A stretch of DNA of 64,000 bases from Gluconobacter aidae. Its GTDB lineage: Bacteria > Pseudomonadota > Alphaproteobacteria > Acetobacterales > Acetobacteraceae. Below, piece after piece: positions 2,902-28,239 of the stretch (positions are counted from its first letter, which is position 1; every line of letters starts with the position of its first letter). Where the stretch lies: the NCBI RefSeq assembly GCF_009547075.1, contig NZ_WIPH01000006.1, positions 1 through 64,000 of the forward strand. Reading direction: 5' to 3'. A program made the translations under genes and the position numbers. Under the pieces are notes generated by a model. That model worked only from the letters and a program-made list of their open reading frames with translations, was not told where the DNA came from and did no database searches.

Positions 2902-3857
2902 TTGGGTGCCTGGCTGCTGTTTGCCTCGTTCGGCACGACGAGCCCCTGAATGGGGGAATCCGTGCCCGGCAGCATGGTTGCGATGCCGGTCTTCATGTTC
3001 ACGATGGCCTGCGAGCCATTGTTCTGGTTCTGCCCCTGCGTGACATGCACATGGCCGATCAGGCGGGCGATCTGGGTATCGAAAACATAGACGCCACGAT
3101 CGCCCGTGGCGGTCTGGGTCGGGGTCCGCAGAACGACATGCCCCCAGCCATAGGCCCGGTCGAGCTTCGAGGAACCGCCGCCCATCGGATTGGACGAATC
3201 TGCGGCCGCCTGCCCCGGTTTTGCGGACTGTCCCGGAGCAGGCGCGTCGTTGGGTTTGCTGAACGAGACGAGCACGTCCGCCTTGACCTGCTTGCCGTCA
3301 TTGGTCGTGACGGTCGCATCGCCCCGGCCAACCGACATGCGCGTCTTGGAGTGATATTCCATGACGTCGCGGGCCGTCAGAACGTCCTGCGGTGTGGTCA
3401 GTTTCAGATGCTTGCCGGTCATGACCATGACGCCCTGATCCATGTCGTACAGCGCATGATCGCCCCAGCCCTGATCGGTCTGGTTGTAGATATGGACGTT
3501 GCCGCGCGCTTCGATCCGGTACAGTTCAAGCGAACCGCCCATCGGATCGTTGCTGCTGGCGCTTTTGCCGTCGGCCGGTGTCGGCGCGGGAGCGGGCTGT
3601 CCGGGAGCGGGCGCCTTCTTGCGCAGATACCCGATCAGCGTGTCCGCATCGACCGTCGTATCTCCGCGCACGGCCCGCGCTCCGCCCGTAAGGGTCACGG
3701 TCTGGGCATTGCGATCGTAGATCTCTTCCTTTTTCCAGAAGAGCTGCACCGCTTCACCATGGGACATGTCCAGTCCGTCCGCATGCGCCGGCGCGGAGGG
3801 AAGGGCCAGGGGGAGAGCGACGAGGAGGGGGAGGAAGGCTGCGGGGCGGGGAGTCAT
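2898..3857 (-). CDS. lptA: Periplasmic LPS-bridge protein LptA (OstA-like)
   Basis: Periplasmic beta-jellyroll protein that forms the bridge carrying LPS to LptDE. A signal peptide is visible at residues 1-26 (hydrophobic AAFLPLLVALPLAL, cut near AHA). Further on are OstA-type beta-strand repeats such as GARAVRGDTTVDADTLIGYL and, near the C-terminus, YVFDTQIARLIGHVHVTQG. At 319 residues it is much longer than E. coli LptA, with Pro/Ala-rich insertions around 90-115 and 215-235. Four-base overlaps with lptC upstream and lptB downstream indicate translational coupling. Confidence 0.88.
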   Translation of the reverse strand: MTPRPAAFLPLLVALPLALPSAPAHADGLDMSHGEAVQLFWKKEEIYDRNAQTVTLTGGARAVRGDTTVDADTLIGYLRKKAPAPGQPAPAPTPADGKSASSNDPMGGSLELYRIEARGNVHIYNQTDQGWGDHALYDMDQGVMVMTGKHLKLTTPQDVLTARDVMEYHSKTRMSVGRGDATVTTNDGKQVKADVLVSFSKPNDAPAPGQSAKPGQAAADSSNPMGGGSSKLDRAYGWGHVVLRTPTQTATGDRGVYVFDTQIARLIGHVHVTQGQNQNNGSQAIVNMKTGIATMLPGTDSPIQGLVVPNEANSSQAPK

Positions 3858-4660
3858 TTTTCGGTCTTCAGTCCTTGCAGGCGCAGGCGGGCCGCCGCAC
3901 TCGGAGGGCCGTTGTCGTCGTTGCGGACCGTCAGTCCCGGTCCTGTAAACTGCATGATACCTGCATGCTGGTCCAGAAAATAGCCTTGGGCGTCCTGCCG
4001 GCCGAAGGGGCCTTCCGCGTGGACCCAGTCGCGGGATGCGATCACGTCGGCCTTGAGGTCCAGATCGGCGGAGGGGCCGTTCATGAGCAGGCCGTCGTCA
4101 CGGTAGAGCACGACGTGGTCGTCGAGATCGAGGGTCTGCTCGTGCTGCATGTAGACGCCGCGGTCGGAGCGGATATGGGCCCAGGAGTTGCCGGAGAGCT
4201 GGATATCGGCGACGGGATCGACCAGATCCACGCGATCGGGGCCCTGCTGGCGGGTGGTGCGGGCGGTAATCATGTAAGGGTGGTTATGAGCGTCGAGGCC
4301 GCGATAGGTGGCCTGTTCCATGTTGCCGCTTTCCACGCGCAGGCGGGCCATTTCCTTCAGGGCGGCACGGTTCTGGTTTACGAGATGGGAGATCTCGGGC
4401 CAGGCGGCGATGGAGCTGAGCAGGACGAGGGCCAGACCCGGCAGCGCCCATTTGGCGAATGCCAGAAGGGAGCGACGGCGGGCGAGCTGTTCGGCGTCTG
4501 GGGCCTGACGGATCCGCTGGAAGGCCGCGCGACGCAGATCGTCCAGCCGGGCGAGGCTCTCGGTGCGGTCCGGGTCAAAATCCTCGCGGCGGATGCGGGG
4601 CTCGCCGTTTTCGGAGTCCGGAGCATTGGGGCCGGGAGCATCCGGGTTGGGGCCGTTCAT
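3854..4660 (-). CDS. lptC: LPS export protein LptC
   Basis: Inner-membrane, bitopic protein that receives LPS from LptB2FG and hands it to LptA. The 268-residue product has a charged cytoplasmic N-terminus (about 1-68), one membrane segment (about 69-89, ALPGLALVLLSSIAAW) and a periplasmic beta-rich domain with the YRGLDAHNHPYMITA-type LptC pattern. The N-terminal cytoplasmic tail is longer than in E. coli LptC but common in alphaproteobacteria. It overlaps kdsD and lptA by 4 bases each. Confidence 0.88.
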   Translation of the reverse strand: MNGPNPDAPGPNAPDSENGEPRIRREDFDPDRTESLARLDDLRRAAFQRIRQAPDAEQLARRRSLLAFAKWALPGLALVLLSSIAAWPEISHLVNQNRAALKEMARLRVESGNMEQATYRGLDAHNHPYMITARTTRQQGPDRVDLVDPVADIQLSGNSWAHIRSDRGVYMQHEQTLDLDDHVVLYRDDGLLMNGPSADLDLKADVIASRDWVHAEGPFGRQDAQGYFLDQHAGIMQFTGPGLTVRNDDNGPPSAAARLRLQGLKTEK

Positions 4661-5655
4661 GACAGGCCGCTTCGCAGCAGGTCGTGGACGTGGACGATGC
4701 CTGTGGGGCGCCGGTCTTCATCCACGATGAAGAGGCTCGTGATGGGGCGCTCGCGCTGGTTCATGAGCTGTAGCACGTCCTGCGCCAGCGTGGTGGGAGT
4801 GGCGGTGACGGGGGCGGCGTTCATGACGTCTTTCGCCGTGGTCGTGTCGAGGTCACCGGAGAGGGCGCGACGCAGGTCGGCGTCCGTGATGAGGCCCTGA
4901 AGTACACCATTGTCATCAGTCACACCCATGCACCCGAATGACTTGCGTGTCATCTCGAGAATGACGGAGCGCAGCGGGAGGCTGCCCTGTCCGAGAGGCA
5001 GGGCGTCCCCCGTGTGCATCAGGTCGCTGATGGGGCGCAGGCGGGCGCCGAGGAGGCCGCCGGGATGGAAAGCGCCGAAATCGCGGGCCGTGAAACCGCG
5101 TTTTTCGAGCAGCGCGAGGGCGAGCGCGTCGCCAAGGGCGAGTTGCAGCAGGGTGCTGGTCGTCGGTGCCAGGCCCATCGGGCAGGCCTCGGTGCTGCTG
5201 GGGAGGACCAGAGGGATCTCGGAAGCGCGGGCCAGGGCGGAGGTGCCGACCGAGGTGATGGCGATCACGCAGTGGTTCTGCCGGGCGGCATAGGCCAGAA
5301 TCGCGGCGAGTTCGGTACTTTCGCCGGAATTGGAGAAGGCGAGGATCAGGTCGCCGGGGGCTACCATGCCCAGATCGCCATGGGCGGCTTCCGCGGGATG
5401 CAGGAAAAGGGAGGGCGTTCCGGTTGAGGCGAGGGTAGCCTGGACCTTGCGGGCGATATGGCCGGATTTGCCGATCCCGGTGACGATCAGGCGGCCTTCG
5501 CTTTGGACGATGCGGTTCACGGCCTCGCAGAAGGCTTCTCCGAGCGGGCCGGAGAGGGCGTGTTCGAGCGCCTGAAGACCTTCGCGCTCGATGGAGACGG
5601 TCTGGAGCGCCGAATCGAGCGCAGTACGGAAGGGGCGGGGCGACGGACGGTGCAT
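4657..5655 (-). CDS. kdsD: Arabinose-5-phosphate isomerase (KdsD/KpsF family)
   Basis: Converts D-ribulose 5-phosphate to D-arabinose 5-phosphate, the first step to Kdo in the LPS inner core. The 332-residue protein has an N-terminal SIS sugar-isomerase domain (GIGKSGHIARKVQATLASTG, then HPAEAAHGDLG and SNSGES). Two CBS domains follow, with VTDDNGVLQGLITDADLRRA in the first. The ATG at 5655 is chosen because it lies 19 bases after the rnd stop; an in-frame ATG at 5784 would overlap rnd heavily and adds residues lacking SIS character. The LPS-export genes follow directly. Confidence 0.92.
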   Translation of the reverse strand: MHRPSPRPFRTALDSALQTVSIEREGLQALEHALSGPLGEAFCEAVNRIVQSEGRLIVTGIGKSGHIARKVQATLASTGTPSLFLHPAEAAHGDLGMVAPGDLILAFSNSGESTELAAILAYAARQNHCVIAITSVGTSALARASEIPLVLPSSTEACPMGLAPTTSTLLQLALGDALALALLEKRGFTARDFGAFHPGGLLGARLRPISDLMHTGDALPLGQGSLPLRSVILEMTRKSFGCMGVTDDNGVLQGLITDADLRRALSGDLDTTTAKDVMNAAPVTATPTTLAQDVLQLMNQRERPITSLFIVDEDRRPTGIVHVHDLLRSGLS

Positions 5656-25346: not shown

Positions 25347-26027
25347 ATGTCCTCAACCCTTTCCCCGCGTTCGGCACTGGACGCGGAAGCCGTCAAGACG
25401 GCTTATCGCCGATGGGCCCGCGTTTATGATACTGTTTTTGGCGGTATTTCGGGGTACGGACGTAAGAGAGCAGTGGCTGCGGTCAATGCCCTGCCAGGCG
25501 AGAGGGTTCTGGAAGTCGGCGTTGGAACGGGGCTGGCGCTGCCGTCCTATTCCCGAGACAAGCGGATCACGGGAATCGATCTTTCCGAAGATATGCTGGA
25601 GCGTGCGCGCATCCGCGTTCTGCAGGATCATCTGACGAATGTGGATGACCTGCTGGAAATGGATGCGGAAGCCACGACGTTCGAGGATGACAGCTTTGAT
25701 ATTGCCGTTGCAATGTTCGTCGCCTCCGTCGTGCCGCATCCGGACCGCCTGCTGGCGGAACTCAAGCGGGTTGTGAAGCCGGGCGGGCATATCCTGTTCG
25801 TCAACCACTTCCTGGCGACGGGTGGTCTGCGTCTTTCGGTCGAGCGGGGCATGGCCCGCGCGTCGCGTTCGCTGGGCTGGCATCCGGATTTTGCGATTGA
25901 ATCGCTGCTGCCGCCGGAAGACCTGTGCCGTGCCACGCTGACGCCGGTCCCGCCCGCGGGGCTGTTTACACTCGTGACATTGCCGCAATGCGAGAGTAAA
26001 AGCGACGCAGCAGCCCTGGTCGCCTGA
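25347..26027 (+). CDS. pmtA: Phosphatidylethanolamine N-methyltransferase (PmtA type)
   Basis: SAM-dependent methyltransferase of the Rhodobacter/Rhizobium PmtA kind, which methylates phosphatidylethanolamine toward phosphatidylcholine at the membrane surface. The 226-residue protein has the AYRRWARVYDTVFGGISGYG N-terminus typical of PmtA, SAM motif I (LEVGVGTGL, 55-63) and GIDLSEDMLERAR. The post-motif region is KRVVKPGGHILFVNHF. It is class I in fold, so UbiE-type or other lipid methyltransferases are the alternative. It precedes the CoxA-like gene by about 85 bases on the same strand. Confidence 0.82.
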   Translation: MSSTLSPRSALDAEAVKTAYRRWARVYDTVFGGISGYGRKRAVAAVNALPGERVLEVGVGTGLALPSYSRDKRITGIDLSEDMLERARIRVLQDHLTNVDDLLEMDAEATTFEDDSFDIAVAMFVASVVPHPDRLLAELKRVVKPGGHILFVNHFLATGGLRLSVERGMARASRSLGWHPDFAIESLLPPEDLCRATLTPVPPAGLFTLVTLPQCESKSDAAALVA

Positions 26028-26113: not shown

Positions 26114-27292
26114 ATGACTTATCAGGCCGTCGATACTGCCCCGGATACTCCCTCGGCCCGTTCCAGCCGCCGAGTCGGAACGTCTTTCATTCTGCTGGCA
26201 CTTTTTGCCGGTCTGCTGGGCGGGTCGCTGGCTCTGCCAATTCTTCAGACACATCCCACGAGTGGTCAGGCGTTCTGCCACGGTATTCTCATGACGTTCT
26301 TCGTCATGTGTCCGGCAGCCCTCGGTGGTTTCGGCCAGTGGCTTCTGCCGTCCGCGCTGGGGACGGATCGGACGGTGCTTCGGGGCCTGACGATGGCGGG
26401 GTTCGGGTTCCTGTCTTCCGGTGTGGTGCTGCTTCCGGTTCTGCCGTTCGTGGCTCTGCTGCTGTGGTCAGTCGGAATCCTGGCTGTGGCGATCGACGTG
26501 ATCACCACCTGCCTTGAGGGACGGACCTGCCGTTTCCGTGATATGTCGCCGCTGGCCTGGTCGCTGCTGGCGACCGCGTGCAGCGTTGTTCTGGTGGCAC
26601 CGGTTCTGGCGGCGGTTGTGACGCGCGGCATGATGGACGGGATTACGACCACGGCCCTGATCGAGACGCTGCATTTGCCGGAAACCGCTCTGATGCTGAC
26701 GCCTGCTCTGGGGCTGGTGGCGTCGGCGCTGCTGTCGCGTTCGTTCAATGGAGGCGCTTCCTGGACGGTGGCGCCTTATGTTTTTGGCGTCATGGGCATC
26801 GGTGGTCCGCTTCTCTGGATGGACGGGCTGTATGGCTCGCTTCCCGCTGGCGTGACGGCCAGCCTTGTTTTTGTGACGCAGATCCTGCCGTCGGTGGTGC
26901 TGATTGGTGCGCTGTGCAGGGATGTGTGGCGGCAGAAGCGGGATCTGGATGGTGCCGCGCTCTGGGCGATTGGCAGCATTCTGCTTTTCACGGCGGGATG
27001 GCTGTCTGACTGGCTGCCGGGACATTCGGGCGATCATACGGCTGTGGCGTTCGGTGGCATCATGGCGCTTTGCGGCGGGTTCTATGCCTGGGTCGAGATG
27101 CTTCTCCCCGGCCGGATCCCCGCGATGATGAGCCGGCTGCATGCCGGGCTGATGCTGGTCGGGGCGTTCTGTTCGATCGTGCCGGGCGTCATGATCTATG
27201 GTGAAGTTCTTATGGGGATCAGTCTGCTGGCCTTTGGTCTGGTCGGGCTGTTCCTGTTGAGGGAGACCGGCCGTGCCCGGGTCTCGGCATGA
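26114..27292 (+). CDS. Degenerate haem-copper oxidase subunit I-like membrane protein
   Basis: A 392-residue polytopic protein (about 10-11 membrane segments) that aligns by eye with subunit I of aa3-type oxidases but is shorter. The TM2 segment CHGILMTFFVMCPAALGGFG matches the AHG..FF..MPA..GGFGN block, keeping the low-spin haem His (His56). The second low-spin ligand survives as His308 in DHTAVAFGG..GGFYAW. All oxygen-centre ligands are replaced: the HPEVY His and Tyr are Leu188 and Ala192, the WAHH pair is Asp237-Gly238, and the high-spin haem His is Gly306. It therefore should not reduce oxygen. The 3' end overlaps ctaB by 4 bases. Confidence 0.75.
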   Translation: MTYQAVDTAPDTPSARSSRRVGTSFILLALFAGLLGGSLALPILQTHPTSGQAFCHGILMTFFVMCPAALGGFGQWLLPSALGTDRTVLRGLTMAGFGFLSSGVVLLPVLPFVALLLWSVGILAVAIDVITTCLEGRTCRFRDMSPLAWSLLATACSVVLVAPVLAAVVTRGMMDGITTTALIETLHLPETALMLTPALGLVASALLSRSFNGGASWTVAPYVFGVMGIGGPLLWMDGLYGSLPAGVTASLVFVTQILPSVVLIGALCRDVWRQKRDLDGAALWAIGSILLFTAGWLSDWLPGHSGDHTAVAFGGIMALCGGFYAWVEMLLPGRIPAMMSRLHAGLMLVGAFCSIVPGVMIYGEVLMGISLLAFGLVGLFLLRETGRARVSA

Positions 27293-28239
27293 GCGATACG
27301 GCGACACCTTTAGTCCCTTCGGGGGTTTTTTCCGTTCCGGGCAAGGATGGCGATCCGTCCCTGCGTGAATGGCTGGCGCTCCTCAAGCCGCGCGTGATTT
27401 CGCTGGTGGTGTTTACGGGCGCTGCGGGCATGGCTGTGGCGCCGCGCTGGCCGTCCATTCCCATCGGGCTGATTACCATTCTGTGCATCTGTATCGGGGC
27501 AGGCGCCGCTGGTGCGATCAACATGTGGTATGACCGCGACATTGACGCGATCATGAAGCGGACGGTCGTGCGGCCCATTCCGGACGGGCGGATGCCGGAG
27601 CAGGCGGCGCTGGTTTATGGCGTTGTGCTGTCGGTTCTGTCGGTGGTTGTGCTGTGGCTGGCGACGAATGCGCTGGCGGCTGGCATTCTGGCGTTTTCGA
27701 TCTTTTTCTACAGCGTCATCTACACGATGTGGCTCAAGCGGAGCACGCCGCAGAACATTGTGATTGGTGGGGCTGCGGGCGCGTTTCCGCCGATGATCGG
27801 CTGGGCTGCGACCATGAACTCCATGGCTGTGCTGCCGGTGGCGATGTTTGCAATCGTGTTCCTGTGGACGCCGCCGCATTTCTGGTCCCTGTCGCTTTAT
27901 GCGTGCAAGGATTACGGCAAGGCAGGCATACCGATGCTGCCGGTCGTGAAGGGTGCACGCCATACGCGCTGGCAGATCCTGATCTACACGTTCATCCTTA
28001 CGGCCGTTTCGCTGGTGCCGAGCTTCGTGCATGAAGTCGGGCTGACCTATACGGTTGTGACCAGTCTGCTGGATCTGGGGTTCATTCTCTGTGCGTTCCG
28101 GGTGCTGATGGACAAACAGGATGCGGAAGGGGGGAGCCTGACGAAGGACAAGCCGGCGCGGTTCGCGTTCCGCTATTCGCTGGCCTATCTGTTCCTGCTG
28201 TTCTGTGGGCTGCTGGTTGACCGGGTTCTGATCGGATGA
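27289..28239 (+). CDS. ctaB: Protohaem IX farnesyltransferase (haem O synthase)
   Basis: Integral-membrane prenyltransferase converting haem B to haem O for haem-copper oxidases. The 316-residue, multi-spanning protein has the Asp-rich NMWYDRDIDAIMKRT motif with VRPIPDGRM, the second conserved block FLWTPPHFWSLSLY, and GIPMLPVVKG. It overlaps the CoxA-like gene (ATGA) and the next tiny gene (ATGA), so the three are one translational unit. In Gluconobacter the likely customer is a cytochrome bo3 quinol oxidase encoded elsewhere, since no functional oxidase is seen here. The name cyoE would be equally valid. Confidence 0.94.
   Translation: MSDTATPLVPSGVFSVPGKDGDPSLREWLALLKPRVISLVVFTGAAGMAVAPRWPSIPIGLITILCICIGAGAAGAINMWYDRDIDAIMKRTVVRPIPDGRMPEQAALVYGVVLSVLSVVVLWLATNALAAGILAFSIFFYSVIYTMWLKRSTPQNIVIGGAAGAFPPMIGWAATMNSMAVLPVAMFAIVFLWTPPHFWSLSLYACKDYGKAGIPMLPVVKGARHTRWQILIYTFILTAVSLVPSFVHEVGLTYTVVTSLLDLGFILCAFRVLMDKQDAEGGSLTKDKPARFAFRYSLAYLFLLFCGLLVDRVLIG

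Follow-up and report, generated by a model that had tools for sequence, protein, structure and literature searches.

The stretch analysed here, referred to as the window, comprises 64,000 nucleotides of Gluconobacter aidae (Acetobacteraceae; contig NZ_WIPH01000006.1 of assembly GCF_009547075.1, positions 1 to 64,000). It contains a gene for a protein of 392 amino acids resembling subunit I of the A-family haem-copper oxidases (CtaD, CoxA or COX1), here called the COX1-like protein. The gene is located between a PmtA-like methyltransferase gene and ctaB, which encodes haem O synthase, and its nearest named copies are those of G. potus (98%) and G. oxydans (97%). The first-pass annotation of this DNA described the frame as intact and coupled to ctaB; it indeed runs uninterrupted from ATG to TGA, and the ATG of ctaB (27289) overlaps its stop codon as ATGA. 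Positions of the features discussed are collected in Table 1.

The protein matches the Pfam COX1 family (PF00115) over residues 20–360 with an E-value of 1.3e-13 (51 bits, against a cut-off of 34.8), and the Pfam scan found no other domain in it. Its score with the CtaD/CoxA equivalog model TIGR02891 is 36 bits, far under the curated cut-off of 670.75. A phmmer comparison with COX1 of R. sphaeroides (3om3) gives an E-value of 3.4e-9. AlphaFold modelling with 21 Gluconobacter sequences yields twelve transmembrane helices (TM1 to TM12), with a predicted local distance difference test score (pLDDT) of 65 and a predicted template modelling score (pTM) of 0.73; with a G. thailandicus orthologue placed first, these values are 71.5 and 0.77. 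Foldseek returns 46 matches with E-values below 0.001 for each model, all of them oxidase entries (best values 3.5e-8 and 4.0e-9). Judged by sequence and predicted fold, the frame thus encodes a true subunit I homologue, far beyond chance. The first-pass annotation had made the same claim, naming profile alignment and structure prediction as checks, and both agree with it: the COX1 profile is matched and the twelve-helix fold is best matched by solved oxidases.

In the alignment with the R. sphaeroides chain, His56 coincides with the first low-spin haem ligand, and Gly306 and His308 with the first and second histidines of the HFH motif. Leu188 and Ala192 take the places of the histidine and tyrosine of HPEVY, and Asp237-Gly238 those of the two histidines of WAHH. 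We take the aligned oxidase positions to be the low-spin, high-spin and CuB ligands and the cross-linked tyrosine, as they are usually named. The phmmer alignment has the same registration as that from which it was originally proposed that His56 and His308 are retained and that every ligand of the binuclear centre is replaced (Leu188, Ala192, Asp237, Gly238 and Gly306). Like A-family subunit I, the protein has twelve helices, the TM2 and TM10 motifs, both low-spin histidines and a place before ctaB; the COX1 profile match, the fold similarity and the histidine pair are what is expected of a subunit I homologue. However, the three CuB histidines, the high-spin histidine, the cross-linked tyrosine and the K-path lysine, which mark a functional haem-copper oxygen reductase, have been replaced, the PRR loop is gone, the chain is about 140 residues shorter than that of R. 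sphaeroides and no coxB gene lies beside it.

A search for the COX1-like protein matched 337 of 397 genomes of the Acetobacteraceae. Rows for alignment were the places covering most of the query, among the matches listed, together with named loci; the other places listed mostly cover TM1 and TM2 inside frames longer than 500 amino acids, and six of these (L127–L132) were read as intact CoxA controls. Dropping nine identical rows left 115 distinct ones, with a median pairwise identity of 27%, and dropping two incomplete rows left 113. Histidine is present at position 56 in 114 of the 115 rows and at position 308 also in 114, and both are present in all 113 complete, in-frame rows. The exceptions are a frame-broken copy (L081, genome G327), whose long frame lacks His56 while another frame carries the histidine-bearing motif, and a copy (L110) truncated at the edge of its contig. 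At the binuclear sites, histidine or tyrosine is rare or variable: His188 and Tyr192 occur in no row, His237 in 46, His238 in 10 and His306 in one of 115. The six controls all carry the full ligand set. In a later set of 20 copies, hand-picked from a genus already represented (g31; nearest identity to the earlier rows 0.40–0.96), both histidines are present in the 19 intact copies, and the twentieth (L191, genome G621) is broken into three pieces that hold the two histidine motifs separately. The histidine pair therefore does not vary freely across the family, the point on which the first-pass annotation had wanted a survey. The spacing from His56 to Pro79 (23 residues) and from His308 to Tyr324 (16 residues) is gap-free in 113/113 degenerate rows and 6/6 intact CoxA sequences, and because of this His308 corresponds to the low-spin ligand. 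A registration error, with His308 as the high-spin ligand, is ruled out by the gap-free spacing to Tyr324 and Trp326.

The extent of this conservation was assessed among 66 rows on a tree that holds four intact CoxA sequences, built by a quick method with the ligand columns left out. Over 361 columns the median is 20 changes per column. Only four columns show no change at all, those of His56, His308, Trp149 and Trp235, while the binuclear-centre columns show 15–27 changes and columns 36, 189, 200 and 324 two changes each. Eleven columns hold histidine in all six intact CoxA sequences, and only 56 and 308 among them are unchanged. The invariance of the two tryptophans may reflect the fold, a haem contact or a contact with CtaB.

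Some intermediate and broken forms were also seen. The first histidine of the CuB pair is retained (as WxH) in 46/115 rows. The residue after it is often Asp or Gly, which places these rows midway from the oxidase to the form in the window. The copy L126 (genome G071, positions 3746–5323) is a long-branch form of 526 amino acids with both low-spin histidines and without the binuclear ligands, and may stand closer to the intact enzyme; the degenerate form may have a single origin. The frame-broken copies L081 and L191 are both located in incomplete genomes, where the breaks could be sequencing errors or recent losses.

Table 1. Features of the COX1-like locus in the window.
Feature	Position	Strand	Remarks
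COX1-like (ctaD-derived) gene	26114..27292	+	392 aa, ATG...TGA, 12 predicted transmembrane helices
His56 codon CAC	26279..26281	+	Low-spin haem ligand position, TM2
Trp149	26558..26560	+	Invariant, 115/115 rows
Leu188, at CuB His position of HPEVY	26675..26677	+	R. sphaeroides alignment; His in 0/115 rows
Ala192, at cross-linked Tyr position	26687..26689	+	Tyr in 0/115 rows
Trp235 (W of WAHH)	26816..26818	+	Invariant, 115/115 rows
Asp237-Gly238, at CuB HH pair position	26822..26827	+	His in 46/115 and 10/115 rows
Gly306, at high-spin haem His position	27029..27031	+	His in 1/115 rows
His308 codon CAT	27035..27037	+	Low-spin haem ligand position, TM10
ctaB/cyoE, haem O synthase	27289..28239	+	NF003349, 328.7 bits (cut-off 246); TIGR01473, 318.4 bits (cut-off 210.3)
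Methyltransferase, PmtA-like, upstream neighbour	25347..26027	+	PmtA model, 154.7 bits, under its cut-off of 390

Helix by helix, the COX1-like protein is most like intact CoxA in TM2 (identity 0.50) and TM10 (0.42), which carry the two histidines, and least like it in TM8 (0.16) and TM7 (0.22). Comparing CyoB of the window's genome with an intact CoxA gives 0.54 for TM7, 0.50 for TM6, 0.48 for TM8, 0.47 for TM11 and 0.46 for TM2. TM2 is therefore conserved in both comparisons, the binuclear helices only where catalysis has been kept. The position of the K-path lysine is occupied by one of six residues (Leu, Val, Ile, Phe, Met or Ala) in 110/113 rows. The D path varies and is not uniformly lost: its positions hold Asp in 22/113 and Asn in 30/113, and its glutamate, that of HPEVY, is kept in 72/113 rows and in the window (Glu190). 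The roles of these proton paths, of the TM1 arginine and of PRR, whose arginine pair anchors the propionates of the haem, are those usually given for the oxidases.

The ratio of non-synonymous to synonymous substitution rates (dN/dS) of the COX1-like gene within Gluconobacter has a median of 0.08 (82 pairs with dS between 0.05 and 1); for ctaB it is 0.036 (101 pairs). Between the window and its most distant named relatives it is 0.16–0.24, at saturated dS values above 1. The gene is maintained by purifying selection, in line with what had been proposed, and the ratio is far from the value near 1 that would have spoken against this. A pseudogene is ruled out by the low ratio together with the invariance of the histidine pair.

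The surroundings of the gene tell where it came from. At 130 of 131 loci, a number that includes the six intact CoxA loci, the window itself and near-copies, ctaB comes next, and at the remaining one the contig ends. The first possible start of ctaB lies at −4 in 75/129 loci and within 60 bases in 126/129. At five of the six intact loci, the gap between the methyltransferase gene and ctaD measures 867–1125 bases, and in the two that were read the gene filling it is coxB (COX2); no methyltransferase was found at the sixth. The distance from the end of the methyltransferase frame to the COX1-like frame is at most 203 bases at all 125 degenerate loci; in two cases the open frames, taken at full length, overlap by more than 300. 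The COX1-like gene therefore descends from the ctaD of this locus, which has lost coxB. Intact and degenerate loci alike have the PmtA-like methyltransferase upstream of ctaD and ctaB, an old, conserved neighbourhood.

In the genome of the window, a single CtaB is found over the cut-off (27289..28239), and searches gave no match to CtaA, SURF1 or CtaG/Cox11. Its other oxidase of this superfamily is CyoB, encoded beside CyoA and CyoC (each over its curated cut-off), and ctaB presumably serves this bo3 oxidase. A full COX1 is present in all 61 gene-bearing genomes tested, a part of the 104 first tried, with best E-values of 3e-136 or better; score and frame length suggest that these are bo3-type oxidases, and in the window's own genome the match is CyoB directly. 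In a sample of the order, 9/395 genomes have no COX1-like match. Six of these (G066, G070, G029, G116, G210 and G449) also have no CtaB over the cut-off, and either no COX1 or one in a frame of 785–833 amino acids at about 140 bits. In another (G031), ctaB is located 14 bases from the contig end and the neighbour side falls outside the contig. Within the genus g31, 39/41 genomes have both the COX1-like gene and a CyoB-like match (among them one COX1-like copy with a broken frame and two CyoB-like matches that are partial), and two reduced genomes, which may represent one loss event, have neither. The order-level search drew only Acetobacteraceae genomes. In a class sample of 142 genomes, 140 of them from other families, 117 matched; outside the Acetobacteraceae the near-full-length matches, among those listed, are in frames of at least 477 amino acids, as expected for intact CtaD, and shorter frames among the listed matches of this sample are partial matches.

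By its position next to ctaB, the gene is the one described by Degli Esposti 2023 (PMC10715153, citing Matsutani 2014), where the COX1-like protein of Acetobacter is called "deranged", devoid of any metal-binding residues and perhaps stabilising CtaB. In contrast to that account, all intact copies read here still have both low-spin histidines, and at the level of the sequences this contradicts the loss of "all" metal ligands. A table note in PMC4596401, after Matsutani 2014, credits Granulibacter and A. pasteurianus with cytochrome c oxidase, which fits poorly with a "deranged" protein, and PMC5158111 gives ctaD as APT_01775 and ctaB as APT_01774 in A. pasteurianus. The Bombella intestini genome report (PMC5112900) states that no cytochrome c oxidase genes were found. 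In PMC9145763 a complex of CtaA with CtaB is reported, by which haem O may be handed on, and how haem enters subunit I is described as unsolved. The COX1-like protein would resemble CtaA/Cox15, as presented there, in accepting haem O within the membrane as a partner of CtaB, although it belongs to a different family. SURF1, a haem-binding oxidase assembly factor, has a comparable proposed role in the literature, binding haem and passing it on during assembly; as stated above, neither CtaA nor SURF1 has a match in this genome. The open-access literature search found no report of conservation of the low-spin ligand pair in the COX1-like protein. The gene itself is already known.

Taken from the sequences, the COX1-like protein is probably a haem-binding partner of haem O synthase and not a dead relic. 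A bound haem is the simplest reading because the ligand pair for exactly one haem is invariant, and His56 and His308 very probably bind one. That the result is a membrane protein with a single haem that cooperates with CtaB, stabilising haem, storing it or handing it to bo3, has in our estimate about an even chance of being right. The protein descends in place from CtaD; besides coxB, the K-path lysine, several loops and the CuB/haem-a3 centre have been lost. What remained would be a membrane protein of twelve helices with one bis-histidine haem site. Its ligand would be either haem B, prior to farnesylation by CtaB, or the haem O that results from it, and the protein would stabilise, store or hand over this haem for use by the bo3 ubiquinol oxidase. 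Where CtaA and SURF1 are lacking, as in this genome, a one-haem subunit I could be the acceptor or store of haem O. We hypothesise a complex with CtaB and a role in haem hand-over. More tentatively, and with the odds against it, a terminal oxidase subunit pared down to its low-spin haem site might have become a dedicated haem carrier, taking haem O from CtaB and delivering it to bo3 in bacteria such as this one, whose genome has no match to CtaA, SURF1 or CtaG.

Several observations weigh against a role in haem handling with CtaB. The histidine pair shares its invariance with Trp149 and Trp235, and columns 36, 189, 200 and 324 are nearly invariant, which means that invariance alone does not equal ligation. 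The PRR loop is a gap in 112/113 rows, with no arginine there in the remaining one, and the TM1 arginine is kept in 12/113 rows (in a gappy stretch), so that any haem would sit differently and with fewer contacts. The low-spin side is nevertheless kept where the catalytic side is lost, and fewer contacts would suit an exchangeable haem. Both structural models have modest confidence, and the first is below 50 in pLDDT at both histidines. The adjacency to ctaB is inherited from an old operon. Neighbouring genes can be lost together, and the link to bo3, encoded elsewhere, is for that reason the informative part; yet two genomes without a COX1-like match or a CtaB over the cut-off (G076 and G002) have another COX1 of about 400 bits. 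E. coli, which makes bo3, is not known to have a protein of this kind.

Some of these points would also suit a haem-free structural partner that stabilises CtaB in the membrane and keeps its histidines for the fold, along the lines proposed by Degli Esposti 2023; the adjacency and overlap with ctaB, the lost PRR loop and mostly lost TM1 arginine, the equal invariance of other fold residues (Trp149, Trp235) and the suggestion printed in PMC10715153 all speak for it. We consider this rather unlikely, since it does not predict that exactly the two ligands of one haem, out of seven, are unchanged while the others show 15–27 changes, and its premise that all metal ligands are lost fails in the rows read. 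A b- or o-type electron-transfer cytochrome of the respiratory chain, independent of CtaB, is less likely again: a bis-histidine low-spin site is generally known as a classical electron-transfer site, but coxB is gone, no further redox gene was identified near nine degenerate loci (with partly annotated neighbours) and genomes that lack ctaB and bo3 lack the gene as well. The first-pass annotation had offered a haem-carrying or a haem-sensing protein derived from an oxidase. Its retained, oxidase-derived haem protein is well supported by the conservation. The sensing half has no support of its own, and a haem or oxygen sensor is very improbable: sensing is conceivable for a haem site that lacks a catalytic centre, but COX1 is the single Pfam domain and the constant neighbours identified are the methyltransferase and ctaB. 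Haem handling with CtaB fits the genetics better than sensing because the gene that consistently follows encodes haem O synthase. Least credible of all is a functionless, slowly decaying relic carried by the overlap with ctaB. The lost catalytic ligands and the two frame-broken copies, L081 and L191 in incomplete metagenome-assembled genomes, would suit such a relic, but a dN/dS of about 0.08 and the invariant histidine pair largely refute it, and the gene is kept in genomes of 1.9–2.3 Mb.

The retained histidine pair corrects the published view that none of the metal ligands survive in this gene, which is widespread in acetic acid bacteria, and illustrates the re-use of an enzyme core after its catalysis is gone. 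If the proposed role is true, a one-haem subunit I genetically linked with haem O synthase would offer a simple setting in which the passing of haem towards an oxidase could be tested.
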